Shown in pieces: positions 1,728 to 14,582 of a stretch of 36,702 nt of DNA (the stretch's first letter is position 1; the number at the start of each line of letters is the position of its first letter). Position numbers and translations under genes: made by a program. This DNA comes from Chloroflexota bacterium (GTDB lineage: Bacteria > Chloroflexota > Dormibacteria > Dormibacterales > Dormibacteraceae). The stretch covers positions 1 through 36,702 of the forward strand of contig VBHJ01000140.1 of the NCBI GenBank assembly GCA_005887685.1, in the 5' to 3' direction. Below the pieces are notes generated by a model. That model saw only the letters and a program-made list of their open reading frames with translations, ran no database searches and had not been told where the DNA came from.

Positions 1728-2813
1728 GTGCGCGTGCGCCCGTCGGAGCTGTCGCGGAAGCTGAAGATCGGGCCAGGCGATCGGTGCCTGGTCTTCAACC
1801 CGCCTGAGGGTTACCTCGACCGTCTCGAGCCACTGCCCGAGGGTGCTTCCGCCGGCTCCGGCAACGGGGCCGGTGCGGCGGACGTGGTGCAGATGTTCGT
1901 TGCCGACCGCGCCGCCCTGCAACATGAGTTTTCGGCCGGCTACGGCGCTCTCAAGCCGGGCGGGCGGCTGTGGGTGGCCTACCCGAACGTCGGCAGCGGT
2001 GTGGCGACCGACCTCAGCCGGAATCATGGCTGGGCGGTCGTGTACGGCGCCGGTCTGACCGCGACCGACGAGATCAGCCTGGATGGGTCCTGGGAGGCGC
2101 TGCGATTCGAGCCTTCGGCGCAGGTTGAAAGGAGCCCGGTTCCGGGCGCCGACATGCTTCCGGTCGGACGAGCTGCGAGTCCCGCCTTTCGAGCGGTGCG
2201 CGCCATCGCCGGGGCGCTGTTTCGACTGCTGTTCCGTTTCGACGTGCAGGGGCGCGCAAGGATCCCCAACGGCCCATACGTCCTCATCGCCAATCACCTC
2301 GGCTGGATGGACGCGATCAGCCTGCTGCTGCTATTTCCGCCTGAACCTCGGATCCACTACCTCGCCGACCCGACTTCCATGATGCGGAACCGCCCGCTCT
2401 GGGCGCTCGTGCGCGCGGTCGGCGGCATCGTGCCTGTGGACAGGAGGCAGCGAGGCAACACCATGCTCTTTCGCCACGTCCAGCGCTGCCTCGAGAGAGG
2501 CGGAGTCGTCGCCGTTTTTCCGGAAGGCGATTTCGGTCCGAGCGAGGGGCAGCTGCTTCCATTCAAGAAGGGGTTCGCGCATTTCGCCGCCAGCGCCGGG
2601 GTTCCGGTCCTGCCTGTCGCACTGGCCGGGATGAAGGAGATCTGGGTCGGCAAACGGCTCTTCGTGCGCATCGGAGAGGAGATTTCAACGCAAGGCCGGA
2701 CAGTGGACGAGATCCATCGCCTCGGCGAGGGGGCGGTGGCCGCTCTTCTTCCCGCCTATCAGGAGCCTGCCGGACGCAAGCCGATGCGGCGCTGGCTGAC
2801 CGCCCTCTTTTAG
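1728..2813 (+). CDS. DUF3052-like domain fused to PlsC-type acyltransferase
   Basis: A 361-residue two-domain protein. Residues 1-130 resemble DUF3052: LKIGPGDRCLVFNPPEGYLDRLEPLPEG, DVVQMFVADRAAL, a GALKPGGRLWVAYP strand and a final SWEALRF. Residues 155-355 are a 1-acyl-sn-glycerol-3-phosphate acyltransferase (PlsC) domain with NHLGWMD (HX4D, His190/Asp195) and VFPEGDFGPSE (264-267 FPEG), the acyl-transfer and phosphate-binding motifs. A hydrophobic stretch around residues 157-172 probably docks it to the membrane for phosphatidic acid or another lipid acylation. GTG 1728 is the first start; GTG 1734 is possible. Its stop interlocks with that of the convergent GMC oxidoreductase in the 4 nt 2810-2813. 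The fused N-terminal domain is the unusual part. Confidence 0.85.
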   Translation: MRVRPSELSRKLKIGPGDRCLVFNPPEGYLDRLEPLPEGASAGSGNGAGAADVVQMFVADRAALQHEFSAGYGALKPGGRLWVAYPNVGSGVATDLSRNHGWAVVYGAGLTATDEISLDGSWEALRFEPSAQVERSPVPGADMLPVGRAASPAFRAVRAIAGALFRLLFRFDVQGRARIPNGPYVLIANHLGWMDAISLLLLFPPEPRIHYLADPTSMMRNRPLWALVRAVGGIVPVDRRQRGNTMLFRHVQRCLERGGVVAVFPEGDFGPSEGQLLPFKKGFAHFAASAGVPVLPVALAGMKEIWVGKRLFVRIGEEISTQGRTVDEIHRLGEGAVAALLPAYQEPAGRKPMRRWLTALF

Positions 2814-4432
2814 GTCAGCGTCACCGCCGAGGCCGCCTCCCGCGCGCGGTTCGCCGGGATGAGGCTCATGGCGCGCTCGGCCACCGCGGTGATGGTGAGC
2901 GAAGGATTGACGCCGAGGTTGACGGGAATGGCTGACCCATCGACCACGTACAGGCCCGAGTAGCCGAACACGCGGTTCCGTTCGTCGCATACGGCCAGCT
3001 CGACATCGCTGCCGATGACGGCGCCGCCCAGGATGTGCGCCGTCGATGGGATGTCGAACAGCACCTCGTTGACGGAGCTCGACGGCCATCCGCCGATTTT
3101 TCTTGCCACACGCCGCGCCATGTCATTGGCGATCGGTATGTATGACGGATTGCGTTTGTCTCCGCTCGTCGAGGGAGCCGAAGCGAGGTGCGTGCGGAAA
3201 GGCCAGAACCATCGCCGGCGCCTGACCAGGCGCAGGTCGTTGTCGGTGACCTGCATCACCAGCAGCAGGATGGTGTGCTGCGCCCAACCTCGGGGCATGA
3301 GCGACCTCAGGAAATCTCCCGGCCGGAGGAGTGAGTTGACGAGGAAGCGCAGCGGTCGCGGCATGCCTGGGCCGCCGTCCGTCAGCGGCTTGGCCAGCAG
3401 CCCGATGAAGTCCGAGCCGCGCGGGTAGCGGACGGGTTGGATGTGCGTCACATCGTCGGGATAGATGCTCGACGTGATGGCCACCCCCTCCGTGAAGTCG
3501 GCGTCTTTGCTGTACGACGTCGCTCCGACGATCGCCTCGCTGTTGGTGCGGACCTGCCGGCCAAGCGACGGCGACAGGTCGGGCAACCACTTCTCCTCCC
3601 GCGCGCGCAGCATGAGGTCGATCGTGCCCAGGACGCCGGCTGCCAGCACCACCATTGGCGCGCGCCACGTGGTTCGGCCGCGCCTGAAGAGCCGCGTGCT
3701 GCGAAAGCTGGACAGCTCGAATCCGCGATCGGCCGGCTGTTTGATGCGGTCGACCTGGGTCTCGGGATAGATGTCGACGCCCAGCTTCTCGGCCAGGTAG
3801 AGATAGTTCTTGTCCAGGGTGTTCTTCGCGTTATGGCGGCAACCCACCATGCACCCGCCGCAAAAGACACATCCCGACCGTTCGGGCCCCTCCCCGCCGA
3901 AGTAAGGATCCGGGACCGCCCTTCCAGGCTCGCCGAAGAAGACCGCCACCTCAGTCGGGTGAAAGGTCGCGCCTTTGCCAATGTCGTCGGCGCATTCCTT
4001 CAGGACTTCGTCGGCCCGCGTGAGCCGAGGGTTGGTCGTCGCGCCCAGCATGCGGCGGGCGGTCGCGTAGTGCGGAGCAAGTTCGCTCTCCCAGTCCACG
4101 CCCGCGGGCCAGTCGGGCCGCCCGAACACCTCGCGACGCGGCACCGGCAGGGTGTTGGCGTACACGAGGCTCCCACCTCCGACGCCCGCGCCCGAGCCGA
4201 CGAGCACATCGCGCAGCAGCGTCAGGCGAAGGATGCCGTGGCAGAACAACTTCGGGATCCATAGGGAGCGGCGGAGGTCCCAGTTCGTGCGCGCGAAGTC
4301 TTCGGGCCCGTATCGCCGGCCCGCCTCCAGGACAGCGACGCGATAGCCCTTCTCGGCCAGGCGCAGCGCCGCCACCGAGCCTCCGAAACCCGAACCGACG
4401 ATCAAGACGTCGTACTTGTCGATGACCGCCAC
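2810..4432 (-). CDS. GMC-family (cholesterol-oxidase-like) FAD oxidoreductase
   Basis: About 540 residues. The N-terminal Rossmann motif VLIVGSGFGGSVAALRLAE is followed by VLEAG, then GSGAGVGGGSLVYAN, which shields the flavin. Near residue 190 CVFCGGCMVGCRHNAKNTL gives four cysteines in CX2CX2CX3C, as in a known actinobacterial subgroup of GMC oxidoreductases and suggestive of an iron-sulfur site. The C-terminus has HILGGAVIGSD and VVDGSAIPVNLGVNPSLTITA, the GMC_oxred_C signature. The substrate is probably a sterol-like or other alcohol, but this is unproven. ATG 4441 is possible; I prefer GTG 4432 because TAGCAT (4440-4445 complement) lies 7 nt upstream. It diverges from the membrane protein at 4454, so any promoter for one gene falls inside the other. 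Confidence 0.88.
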   Translation of the reverse strand: MAVIDKYDVLIVGSGFGGSVAALRLAEKGYRVAVLEAGRRYGPEDFARTNWDLRRSLWIPKLFCHGILRLTLLRDVLVGSGAGVGGGSLVYANTLPVPRREVFGRPDWPAGVDWESELAPHYATARRMLGATTNPRLTRADEVLKECADDIGKGATFHPTEVAVFFGEPGRAVPDPYFGGEGPERSGCVFCGGCMVGCRHNAKNTLDKNYLYLAEKLGVDIYPETQVDRIKQPADRGFELSSFRSTRLFRRGRTTWRAPMVVLAAGVLGTIDLMLRAREEKWLPDLSPSLGRQVRTNSEAIVGATSYSKDADFTEGVAITSSIYPDDVTHIQPVRYPRGSDFIGLLAKPLTDGGPGMPRPLRFLVNSLLRPGDFLRSLMPRGWAQHTILLLVMQVTDNDLRLVRRRRWFWPFRTHLASAPSTSGDKRNPSYIPIANDMARRVARKIGGWPSSSVNEVLFDIPSTAHILGGAVIGSDVELAVCDERNRVFGYSGLYVVDGSAIPVNLGVNPSLTITAVAERAMSLIPANRAREAASAVTLT

Positions 4433-4453
4433 GGCGCGCATGCTACGGGCGGC

Positions 4454-9342: not shown

Positions 9343-9439
9343 CTCGTCTCTCCAGCCCGCTGTCAACCGCGGTCACGAATTCGCACGTCGTCCTCGTGTC
9401 TAGAGGTGCGAGACGGCCCTCTATACGGGGGGACGAGAG

Positions 9440-9512
9440 TGCGCCTGGCAGGAATCGAACCTGCTGCCTTTCGGTCCGGAGCCGAACGCTCTGTCCGGTG
9501 AGCTACAGGCGC
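9440..9512 (-). tRNA. tRNA-Arg (CCG)
   Basis: The complement folds into a full cloverleaf: acceptor GCGCCTG/CAGGCGC, D stem GCTC/GAGC, anticodon stem TTCGG/CCGAA around loop CTCCGGA (anticodon CCG), 5-nt variable loop AGGCA, T arm GCAGG-TTCGATT-CCTGC, discriminator A. No CCA is encoded after the discriminator. It reads the CGG arginine codon. TAGACT lies 14 nt upstream of the 5' end and may be its -10. It is a close paralogue of the tRNA at 10192. Confidence 0.97.
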
Positions 9513-9545: not shown

Positions 9546-10178
9546 GTGGGTCGGTTGTTGGCGCTGATGCTCGTCGTGTGCGCGGTGGCCTCGTGTCAGG
9601 GCGAGACGCACGCCGTCTTCAGTCCCGTGCCCAGCCCCTCGCCACACACGGCGCCGACGGTCGCGATGTTGCAGTCGGGCGACGTGCCGGCGGGGCTTAG
9701 CGTGTGTCTTGGCTCAGGGCCGATCGACGTCTATCTCTCAGTGCTGTCGGGCGCCGACGCGGCGCTGGCCGCGCGAGAGTCGAACTTGTGGCAGCAACTG
9801 CGTGACCAGGGAGCGATCGCGGGCGCGGTTTCTGTGTATGCGGCCAACCCCACCGCGTGCAAGACAGAGCTCGGTGCGACGACCACCGTCAAGGCGATGA
9901 CCAGCCTCGTGTTCCAGTTTCGCGATGAGGGTCAAGCCGAACGAGCATGGGAGTCGGGTGTGTTCGGTTTTGCGCCCCCGCCGCCGGGTCAGGTCTCGCC
10001 TGGCCTGATTCGCGGCACGGGCACGGGCCTGGGGCAGAGCTCGTTTACCTACGACCGGCCCTCGGTACGATTGGCATGCTGGCGGCGCTCGGTCTTCGTC
10101 TCGCTGGTGGTGGTCAGCAACCTGGACCTGAACACGTTCCACGCCGCGACCGCCGCGATCGACCCTCGCCTAAACTGA
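9546..10178 (+). CDS. lipoprotein of unknown function, paralogue of the protein at 12109-12771
   Basis: A 210-residue protein with a bacterial lipoprotein signal: MGRLLALMLVVCAVASC places the lipidated cysteine at residue 17 after the V-A-S lipobox. A Pro/Ser/Thr-rich linker follows, then a globular domain. Shared anchors with the protein at 12109-12771 are GDVPAG near the start, SNLWQQLRDQGAIAGAVSVY, LVFQFRDEGQAERAWESGVFGF, GTGTGLGQSSFTYD and the end strand SVFVSLVVVSNLD. The family is not one I can name. It is probably attached to the outer face of the membrane. The GTG start has TAAACT 9 nt upstream and no ribosome-binding site, suggesting a leaderless mRNA. It sits between two tRNA-Arg genes. 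Confidence 0.8.
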   Translation: MGRLLALMLVVCAVASCQGETHAVFSPVPSPSPHTAPTVAMLQSGDVPAGLSVCLGSGPIDVYLSVLSGADAALAARESNLWQQLRDQGAIAGAVSVYAANPTACKTELGATTTVKAMTSLVFQFRDEGQAERAWESGVFGFAPPPPGQVSPGLIRGTGTGLGQSSFTYDRPSVRLACWRRSVFVSLVVVSNLDLNTFHAATAAIDPRLN

Positions 10179-10191
10179 ATCCCTTCTTCAT

Positions 10192-10267
10192 GCGCCTGTA
10201 GCTCACCGGATAGAGCGCTTGCCTGCGGAGCAAGAGGCAGCAAGTTCGATTCTTGCCAGGCGCACCA
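10192..10267 (+). tRNA. tRNA-Arg (GCG), with encoded CCA
   Basis: Complete cloverleaf: acceptor GCGCCTG/CAGGCGC, D stem GCTC/GAGC, anticodon stem CTTGC/GCAAG around loop CTGCGGA (anticodon GCG at 10225-10227), variable AGGCA, T arm GCAAG-TTCGATT-CTTGC, discriminator A at 10264, then encoded CCA at 10265-10267. Anticodon GCG reads CGC and CGU. Bacteria almost always use an A34 tRNA-Arg(ACG), edited to inosine, for this box, so G34 is unusual. TAAACT (10171-10176) could be its -10. Apart from the anticodon arm and a compensated T-stem pair it is nearly the same as the tRNA at 9440. Confidence 0.95.
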
Positions 10268-12812: not shown

Positions 12813-13640
12813 TTAGAAGAAGATCGTCTGGCGCCTCGAGAGCAGCCTGTGCACGCTCGACTGGATCCATTCCCGTACCCGTTCGCTGAGCTCCAGGACC
12901 AGCCGCGCGTCGCCGGCCGCGTCGGGCCCGAAACGCGCCACATCGATCGGCTCACCGAAGGCGATAAGCCATTTGGAGGGGAGTGGGACGAGCCCCGCAA
13001 GGCCAAACCACGGGAACGTCGGAGTGATCGGAAAGGCCGGCAGTCGCAGCATCCGGGCCAGCGGCTGGAGATCCGCGATCACCGGGTGGACTTCTTCGGA
13101 GCCGACGACCGCCACCGGGATGATGGGCGATCCCGTGCGCAGCGCCACCTGCACAAATCCGCCACGACCCAATCGCCGGATCCGGTAACGGTTGCGATAG
13201 GGCTTGGACGCACCCTTCACGCCCTCGGGAAACACCCCGACCAGCTCGTCGCGCTCGAGAAGCGCGGTCGCGTTGTCGGGGTGAGCCAGCACGTTGCCCG
13301 TCTTGATCAGAAGCATGTTGGTGAAAGGCATGGCGAACGCCCAATCGACGACGAGCATGCGCGCGTGTCGGGGTTGTGGATGTTCGGCGAGAATCGCCGT
13401 GCGGATCATCGCGCCGTCGTACGGAATGATGCCGGCATGATTCGCGACGAGAAGCGCTCTGCCACGCGCCGGAACGTTGGTCACGCCGTCGGTTTCGACT
13501 CGCCAGTACTTGCGATAAAACCACAGCGCAACGTTCTTGACCCGCTCGGTGAAGTCGGGGTCAAAGCCGAAGCCGTCGCTTGGAAGTTCCTCACGCGGAG
13601 GACTCACTATGCGGAGGGCCCCCACCGCGTCCATTATCAT
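12813..13640 (-). CDS. lysophospholipid acyltransferase family protein (PlsC-like)
   Basis: About 275 residues from ATG 13640. ALLVANHAGIIPYDGAMIRTA holds the catalytic His with an Asp seven residues later, the spacing of the actinobacterial-type branch of the PlsC superfamily. GVFPEGVKGASKPYRNRYRIRRLGRGGFVQVALRTGSPIIPVAVVGSEE is the acceptor-binding block. It probably acylates a lysophospholipid or other glycerol lipid at the membrane. The open frame extends to 13793, but that extension overlaps the recombinase gene on the other strand. GAGG lies 8 nt before ATG 13640, which I therefore take as the start. It is separated by 15 bp from the divergent recombinase start and by 41 bp from the lipoprotein downstream. 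Confidence 0.87.
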   Translation of the reverse strand: MIMDAVGALRIVSPPREELPSDGFGFDPDFTERVKNVALWFYRKYWRVETDGVTNVPARGRALLVANHAGIIPYDGAMIRTAILAEHPQPRHARMLVVDWAFAMPFTNMLLIKTGNVLAHPDNATALLERDELVGVFPEGVKGASKPYRNRYRIRRLGRGGFVQVALRTGSPIIPVAVVGSEEVHPVIADLQPLARMLRLPAFPITPTFPWFGLAGLVPLPSKWLIAFGEPIDVARFGPDAAGDARLVLELSERVREWIQSSVHRLLSRRQTIFF

Positions 13641-13655
13641 CAGCTCGGCCTCGAT

Positions 13656-14582
13656 ATGCCACTCGCCCTGCAGGCCGCCGCGGATGAATACATTGGATGG
13701 CTTCAGCTCGAGGCCAACCGCAGTCCGAACACGGTTCGCGCCTACGGCTCTGAGATTCGCAGGCTGCTCGGATTTCTTGCGGCCAAAGGACACTCACTCA
13801 TGGCGGATCAACTCCGCCACGAGGACCTGCGTGCATTCCAGCGTCACCTCGCCGGCACGTTGAAGAGCCCGGCCTCTCGCGCACGCGCATTGGTCGCGAT
13901 CCGGTCCTGGCTCCGTTGGATCGCCCGCGAAGGATTGGTCGAACGCGACCTGTCCAACGGCATCACGCTGCCCAAGCTCGAGCAGCGGCTGCCCAAACCC
14001 ATCGACCCCGATGAGCTGACGCGACTTCTCGCGAGCCTGCCCCATGAGACTCCGCTGGAAAAGCGCGACCGCGCGCTGGTGCAGTTCCTCGTCAGCACGG
14101 GATGCCGCATCTCAGAGGCTCTCGCGCTCGACCGGACTGACTTTCCGCGTTCCGGCAATCGTCTTGTCGTCACCGGCAAAGGCTCCAAACAGCGCAGCGT
14201 TTACCTGACAGCCGACGCCCGAGCTGCGATGGAGGATTACCTCGCCGGTCGCGAGGATGCGTGCCTGGCGATGTTCATCAACTTCGACCGCTCCGCGGGC
14301 GATGACCGGGCCAGGCGTTTGACGCCCGCCGGGGCGCGCTACATCGTGAAACAGATTCGCCAGCAGCTTGGCGCGTGGTCGTTCAAGTCACCCCACGTGG
14401 CGCGGCACACCGCGGCGACGACGCTGCTGGAGGTCACCGGTGGCGATGTGCGGCTGGTACAGGAGGTCCTGGGACACGCCAACCTCAACACGCTGCAGGG
14501 TTACACGAAGATCGTCGACAGCCGGAAGCAGGAAGCCTACCGCCTGTACCAGGCATTTCTCGACGGCAAAAAGAAGGCATAG
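13656..14582 (+). CDS. XerC/XerD-type tyrosine recombinase
   Basis: A 308-residue protein, the normal Xer length. Residues 1-95 form the core-binding domain (DEYIGWLQLEANRSPNTVRAYGSEIRRL), and residues 112-308 the catalytic domain. All catalytic positions are present: Arg151 in STGCRISEALAL, Lys175 in TGKGSKQR, His247 and Arg250 in SPHVARHTAAT, His274 in LGHANLNT and the nucleophile Tyr283 in QGYTKIV. Such enzymes resolve chromosome dimers at dif or act in site-specific integration. No attachment site or phage genes are nearby, so a housekeeping role is likelier. The start ATG 13656 is chosen because upstream frame text is antisense to the acyltransferase. XerC and XerD cannot be separated by eye. 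Confidence 0.92.
   Translation: MPLALQAAADEYIGWLQLEANRSPNTVRAYGSEIRRLLGFLAAKGHSLMADQLRHEDLRAFQRHLAGTLKSPASRARALVAIRSWLRWIAREGLVERDLSNGITLPKLEQRLPKPIDPDELTRLLASLPHETPLEKRDRALVQFLVSTGCRISEALALDRTDFPRSGNRLVVTGKGSKQRSVYLTADARAAMEDYLAGREDACLAMFINFDRSAGDDRARRLTPAGARYIVKQIRQQLGAWSFKSPHVARHTAATTLLEVTGGDVRLVQEVLGHANLNTLQGYTKIVDSRKQEAYRLYQAFLDGKKKA

Follow-up and report, generated by a model that had tools for sequence, protein, structure and literature searches.

The tRNA-Arg(GCG) gene in the 36,702-nucleotide stretch of DNA analysed here (the window) raises the question of whether its product supplements the usual arginine decoding system of bacteria or stands in its place. Bacteria usually read CGN codons with tRNA-Arg(ACG), in which A34 is edited to inosine by TadA, and inosine-34 in tRNA-Arg is often held to be near-universal and essential. 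The genomes compared here point to replacement in what genes they contain, in how these are distributed and in how well the tRNA is conserved. At a probability of roughly 0.93, we consider tRNA-Arg(GCG) to be the sole reader of CGU and CGC, having taken over from the ACG/TadA system in the ancestor of Candidatus Dormibacteraceae, with loss of tRNA-Arg(ACG) and tadA and with the GCG gene itself likely a duplicate of its CCG neighbour.

The tRNA-Arg(GCG) gene and its surroundings

The gene has a complete cloverleaf and a CGN-reading anticodon. ARAGORN calls it as tRNA-Arg(gcg), and Rfam RF00005 matches it over the full model (67.5 bits, E 8.8e-13), which confirms the intact fold and the GCG anticodon within the loop CTGCGGA that a preliminary description had read from the letters. 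The acceptor stem reads GCGCCTG/CAGGCGC, and G34 corresponds to base 10225. A base-call error at that position, which the preliminary description had entertained, is excluded, since 22 of the 29 loci read across the family, counting that of the window, have an identical 73-base sequence. The gene also encodes its CCA (10265-10267); the remark that it differs in this from its neighbour is true here, the CCG gene being followed by CTC, but it is uninformative, as CCA is encoded in 27/29 GCG genes and 13/24 CCG genes of the family loci, and a feature that varies in this way among relatives has no special meaning.

Table 1. Features of the window
Feature	Position	Strand	Basis and remarks
tRNA-Arg, anticodon GCG	10192-10267	+	ARAGORN; Rfam RF00005; same 76-mer in 13 congeneric loci
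tRNA-Arg, anticodon CCG	9439-9512	-	ARAGORN, Rfam; divergent partner of the GCG gene
210-aa ORF between both tRNA genes	9546-10178	+	Stop codon 13 bases 5' of the GCG tRNA; no match in a Pfam search
Tyrosine recombinase, 577 aa, XerC-like	12849-14582	+	C-terminal half matches XerC/XerD below cut-offs
GMC-type oxidoreductase	2810-4441	-	Cholesterol oxidase match strong yet below cut-off, 618 of 850 bits

The two tRNA genes are both visible in 24 family loci; in 22 of these they are divergent, at a distance of about 750 bp. Within the window's genus the GCG gene is 100% identical in 13 loci, with flanks that average 78% identity over the upstream 150 bp and 40% over the downstream 150 bp. The weak conservation of the downstream flank, together with the recombinase gene 2.6 kb downstream (Table 1), could be taken to mean that the GCG gene is a pseudogene or a tRNA carried by a mobile element, with no role in translation. 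Against this stand the identity of the gene in all 13 congeners and the recurrence of its 73 bases across the family, as well as the lack in this genome of any other tRNA that reads CGC or CGU. Nor does the window contain an attachment-site repeat for the recombinase, the 3' end of the tRNA being found elsewhere in it only within the CCG gene. We regard this alternative as extremely improbable, and the GCG tRNA is presumably both expressed and charged, even though a promoter scan near the gene gave no promoter-like match.

Arginine tRNAs and TadA in the genome, the family and the class

The draft genome to which the window belongs as contig C14 comprises 264 contigs and 3.05 Mb, at 94% completeness and 2.2% contamination; 42 tRNA matches were found in it, and their anticodons were read with ARAGORN. 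The arginine anticodons among them are CCG, GCG, TCG, TCT and CCT; tRNA-Arg(ACG) is absent from the 42 matches, and the set holds no reader of CGC and CGU other than tRNA-Arg(GCG). The one match of this genome to the TadA profile NF008113 is weak, at 21.5 bits, and comes from a ComEB-like deaminase, the best NCBIfam match of that protein being ComEB (66 bits, below the ComEB cut-off). The genome therefore lacks both parts of the standard inosine-34 arginine box, tRNA-Arg(ACG) and tadA, and has the make-up of a TadA-independent G34/U34 box, without ACG and with TCG present for CGA. By the wobble rules G34 reads CGC and CGU, U34 reads CGA and C34 reads CGG, and inosine is not needed. On this basis tRNA-Arg(GCG) would serve CGC and CGU, the separate tRNA-Arg(TCG) would serve CGA, and tRNA-Arg(CCG) would serve CGG. 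The earlier expectation that a G34 tRNA would leave CGA to another tRNA is thus borne out by the TCG gene of this genome and by the TCG motif, which, when the count is limited to tRNA-like matches, is present in 23/37 family genomes (ARAGORN confirming 22) versus 1/24 relatives.

The same draft also misses tRNAs that must be expected, such as Ala-TGC, Glu-TTC and Gly-GCC, and a single absence proves little; because drafts are incomplete, the case for replacement rests on the pattern across the family. Two sets of genomes were compared: a class set of 110 (42 of Candidatus Dormibacteraceae and 68 others of the class) and a detailed set of 61 (37 of the family, the window's own counted, and 24 class members of other families). 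Of the family genomes 32/42 have the GCG motif, versus 0/68 other class members; in the detailed set the figures are 31/37 (ARAGORN confirms 29) versus 0/24. Pattern matches outside the family, in genomes G042, G149 and G152, are not tRNAs by ARAGORN. The ACG tRNA has the reverse distribution, with 56/68 other class members versus 1/42 family genomes in the class set and 20/24 relatives versus 1/37 in the detailed set. The lone family case (G014, contig C172, locus L385) is not a host gene, as the contig derives from a contaminating member of a different Dormibacteria family: the genome is a MAG with 9% contamination, and its 6.2-kb ACG contig is collinear with contigs of family f3, with pieces up to 86% identical.

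TadA follows the ACG tRNA. Matches of at least 125 bits to the profile occur in 22 of 24 class relatives and in none of the 37 family genomes, among which the top score is 95 bits (G036). This protein is apparently not TadA: in a small FastTree phylogeny whose branches carry no support values, it groups with the 106-bit match of another GCG-bearing genome (G097), outside the TadA group, and both sequences carry EPC.MC.YAIR, while most aligned TadA sequences of class relatives carry the form LEPCPMCAGA. The tree was built without the sequences of G110 and G045 and the RibD of G032, which a motif filter did not pick up. The TadA-like match of G032 (61 bits) is RibD, and G020 has a profile match just as weak. 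A search for the vacated tadA site by synteny found no flanking genes common to the outgroup tadA loci and the contigs of the window's genome tested. Several class relatives have tadA close to tRNA-Ser(CGA) and tRNA-His(GTG) (L090, L092-L110, L114-L117).

The GCG motif was not found in 10 of the 42 family genomes, six of which were searched by BLAST with the tRNA; G004, G013, G016 and G028 gave no similar tRNA-Arg, and G023 and G024 gave the TCG gene alone. GCG and CCG were both unseen in all six, as expected if their common locus is missing from the drafts, and the misses are likely assembly gaps. Four of the more complete genomes lack the TCG motif by pattern, namely G022 and G033, two members of one genus at 93% completeness each, and G005 and G015 (94%); the assignment of CGA to tRNA-Arg(TCG) applies to the genomes where the motif was seen. 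Outside the family, the class relative G043 (L126, L100) has tRNA-Arg(TCG) together with a good TadA (173 bits) and no ACG gene by pattern, and ACG was likewise not seen in its congener G154.

These counts bear directly on the choice between an extra isoacceptor and a replacement that the preliminary description had left undecided. Auxiliary use of a GCG tRNA does exist, as G101, a GCG-bearing Syntrophomonadaceae genome, also has the ACG tRNA and a TadA match of 188 bits, and the genomes compared are drafts in which a normal ACG/TadA system could in principle have been overlooked. Such an oversight would, however, have to recur for both genes in about 40 genomes, whereas drafts of the same class show ACG in 56/68 and TadA in 22/24, and we consider it very unlikely. 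The extra-isoacceptor option is accordingly rejected on its distribution across family and class. The proposed listing of tRNA-Arg genes and tadA in the genome and its relatives instead favours replacement, with ACG and TadA absent from the window's genome and effectively from its family.

Origin of the gene and codon usage

The replacement would have taken place in the ancestor of Candidatus Dormibacteraceae, where tRNA-Arg(GCG) would have succeeded the inosine-edited tRNA-Arg(ACG) and both the ACG gene and tadA would have been lost; the order of these events is our reconstruction. The source of the new gene is suggested by its body. Outside the anticodon arm it is identical to the CCG gene of the same genome at 53 of 56 positions, and to the ACG genes of five relatives at only 37-43 of 56-60. 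By sequence similarity the CCG neighbour is most likely the source, through duplication and rewriting of the anticodon arm, and duplication, as opposed to gene conversion, would be the simplest origin. A different route, differing in gene origin only, would begin with mutation of A34 to G34 in the former ACG gene, after which the CCG gene would have homogenised the body by gene conversion. It leads to the same functional outcome, conversion would be plausible for closely related paralogues separated by 750 bp, and an A34-to-G34 route for a G34 tRNA has been proposed for Mycoplasma in the available passages of PMC3711424. Conversion would nevertheless have to erase nearly the whole ACG body to produce the match to CCG, and we judge this route unlikely.

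Codons were counted with a simple script gene caller in samples of 20 stretches for each group, every stretch being 20 kb long. Of all CGN codons, CGC makes up 48% in the family and 47% in ACG-using relatives; with shares this close, codon use was not what drove the change, and the heavy CGC use offered earlier as a possible driver finds no support. The existence of a U34 tRNA would predict relief of CGA avoidance, and this effect is not clear. CGA rose little if at all, from 9.7% of CGN in relatives to 11.5% in the family, and CGA/(CGA+CGG) relative to other boxes is 1.50-1.81 in the family versus 1.17-1.70 in relatives, with overlapping intervals.

Inosine-free arginine boxes in other bacteria

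A pattern scan of the named collection returned at least 119 GCG matches, and among the 119 listed ARAGORN confirmed tRNA-Arg(gcg) in 90, the other 29 being mostly chance. From the 90, 50 genomes were picked by hand for variety (two from the window's family), a phylogenetically uneven sample; the 29 other genomes, less one archaeon, supplied 28 controls. Among these hand-picked genomes from the matches listed, TadA scores of at least 86 bits, a threshold set after the control scores were known, occur in 4/50 GCG-bearing genomes versus 26/28 controls, and an ARAGORN-confirmed ACG tRNA in 2/50 versus 22/28. The four GCG-bearing genomes above the threshold score 188, 140, 108 and 106 bits; the 108- and 106-bit matches fall outside the TadA group on the small tree, and the 140-bit match is without placement. 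Fisher tests on these counts take no account of relatedness among the genomes, and their p-values are given no weight here. Outside the family, the GCG tRNA thus coincides with TadA loss as a strong tendency, which is not to be read as a rate. In the Syntrophomonadaceae MAG G101 (L237), where GCG, ACG and tadA occur together, contig C80 carries the ACG tRNA and tadA some 300 bp apart, and this genome is possibly an intermediate or an auxiliary case. With slightly better than even confidence, we propose that the family gave up inosine decoding through CCG duplication without a clear change in codon use, and that the GCG tRNA marks a recurrent loss of TadA across phyla, for example in Dehalococcoidia, Anaerolineae, Bipolaricaulota and Dormibacterota.

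The mechanism is already known from other bacteria. In the available passages of PMC4041420 (Wald and Margalit 2014), 19 of 319 bacteria lack A34CG and use G34CG with U34CG, and 9 of these 19 add C34CG, only at high GC, which gives the same tRNA set as here; those passages leave the lineages unnamed and mention no case from Dormibacterota. According to the passages of PMC3711424 (Yokobori et al. 2013), the Mycoplasma pneumoniae group lost tadA and replaced ACG by GCG and UCG, and the G34+U34 strategy is used in quartet boxes of Borrelia, Campylobacter, Helicobacter, Treponema and Thermotoga. The M. pneumoniae group thus resembles the family in the loss of TadA and in a CGN box split between G34 and U34 tRNAs. 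The Mollicutes, however, are without a CCG tRNA in that account, which proposes an ACG origin for their G34 tRNA. In the present case the CCG tRNA persists and probably gave rise to the GCG gene, and the genome is high in GC and 3 Mb in size. GCG in place of ACG is also reported for all sequenced Thermotogae and Spirochaetes in the passages of PMC8007984 (Ehrlich et al. 2021), a lineage-wide substitution like that of the family though in different phyla, and those passages do not discuss the origin of the tRNA. Our literature search found no report of a G34/U34 arginine box in Dormibacterota, and the lineage, the family-wide extent and the likely CCG origin appear to be new.

Candidatus Dormibacteraceae are a family of soil bacteria, and what they present is a full and stable escape from inosine-34 in a 3-Mb, high-GC genome that is not that of a reduced parasite: ACG and TadA are gone across the family, and the replacement tRNA is unchanged within the genus. 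Bacillus subtilis is viable without its TadA (in the available text of PMC10454642). TadA has also been reported to edit bacterial mRNA (in the available text of PMC11472039), and TadA-less lineages can for that reason serve as natural negative controls for A-to-I editing. If the link between the GCG tRNA and TadA loss holds across many phyla, there would be many natural TadA-null lineages, which should also be without TadA-dependent mRNA editing, and the order of loss and replacement would become testable by comparative genomics.
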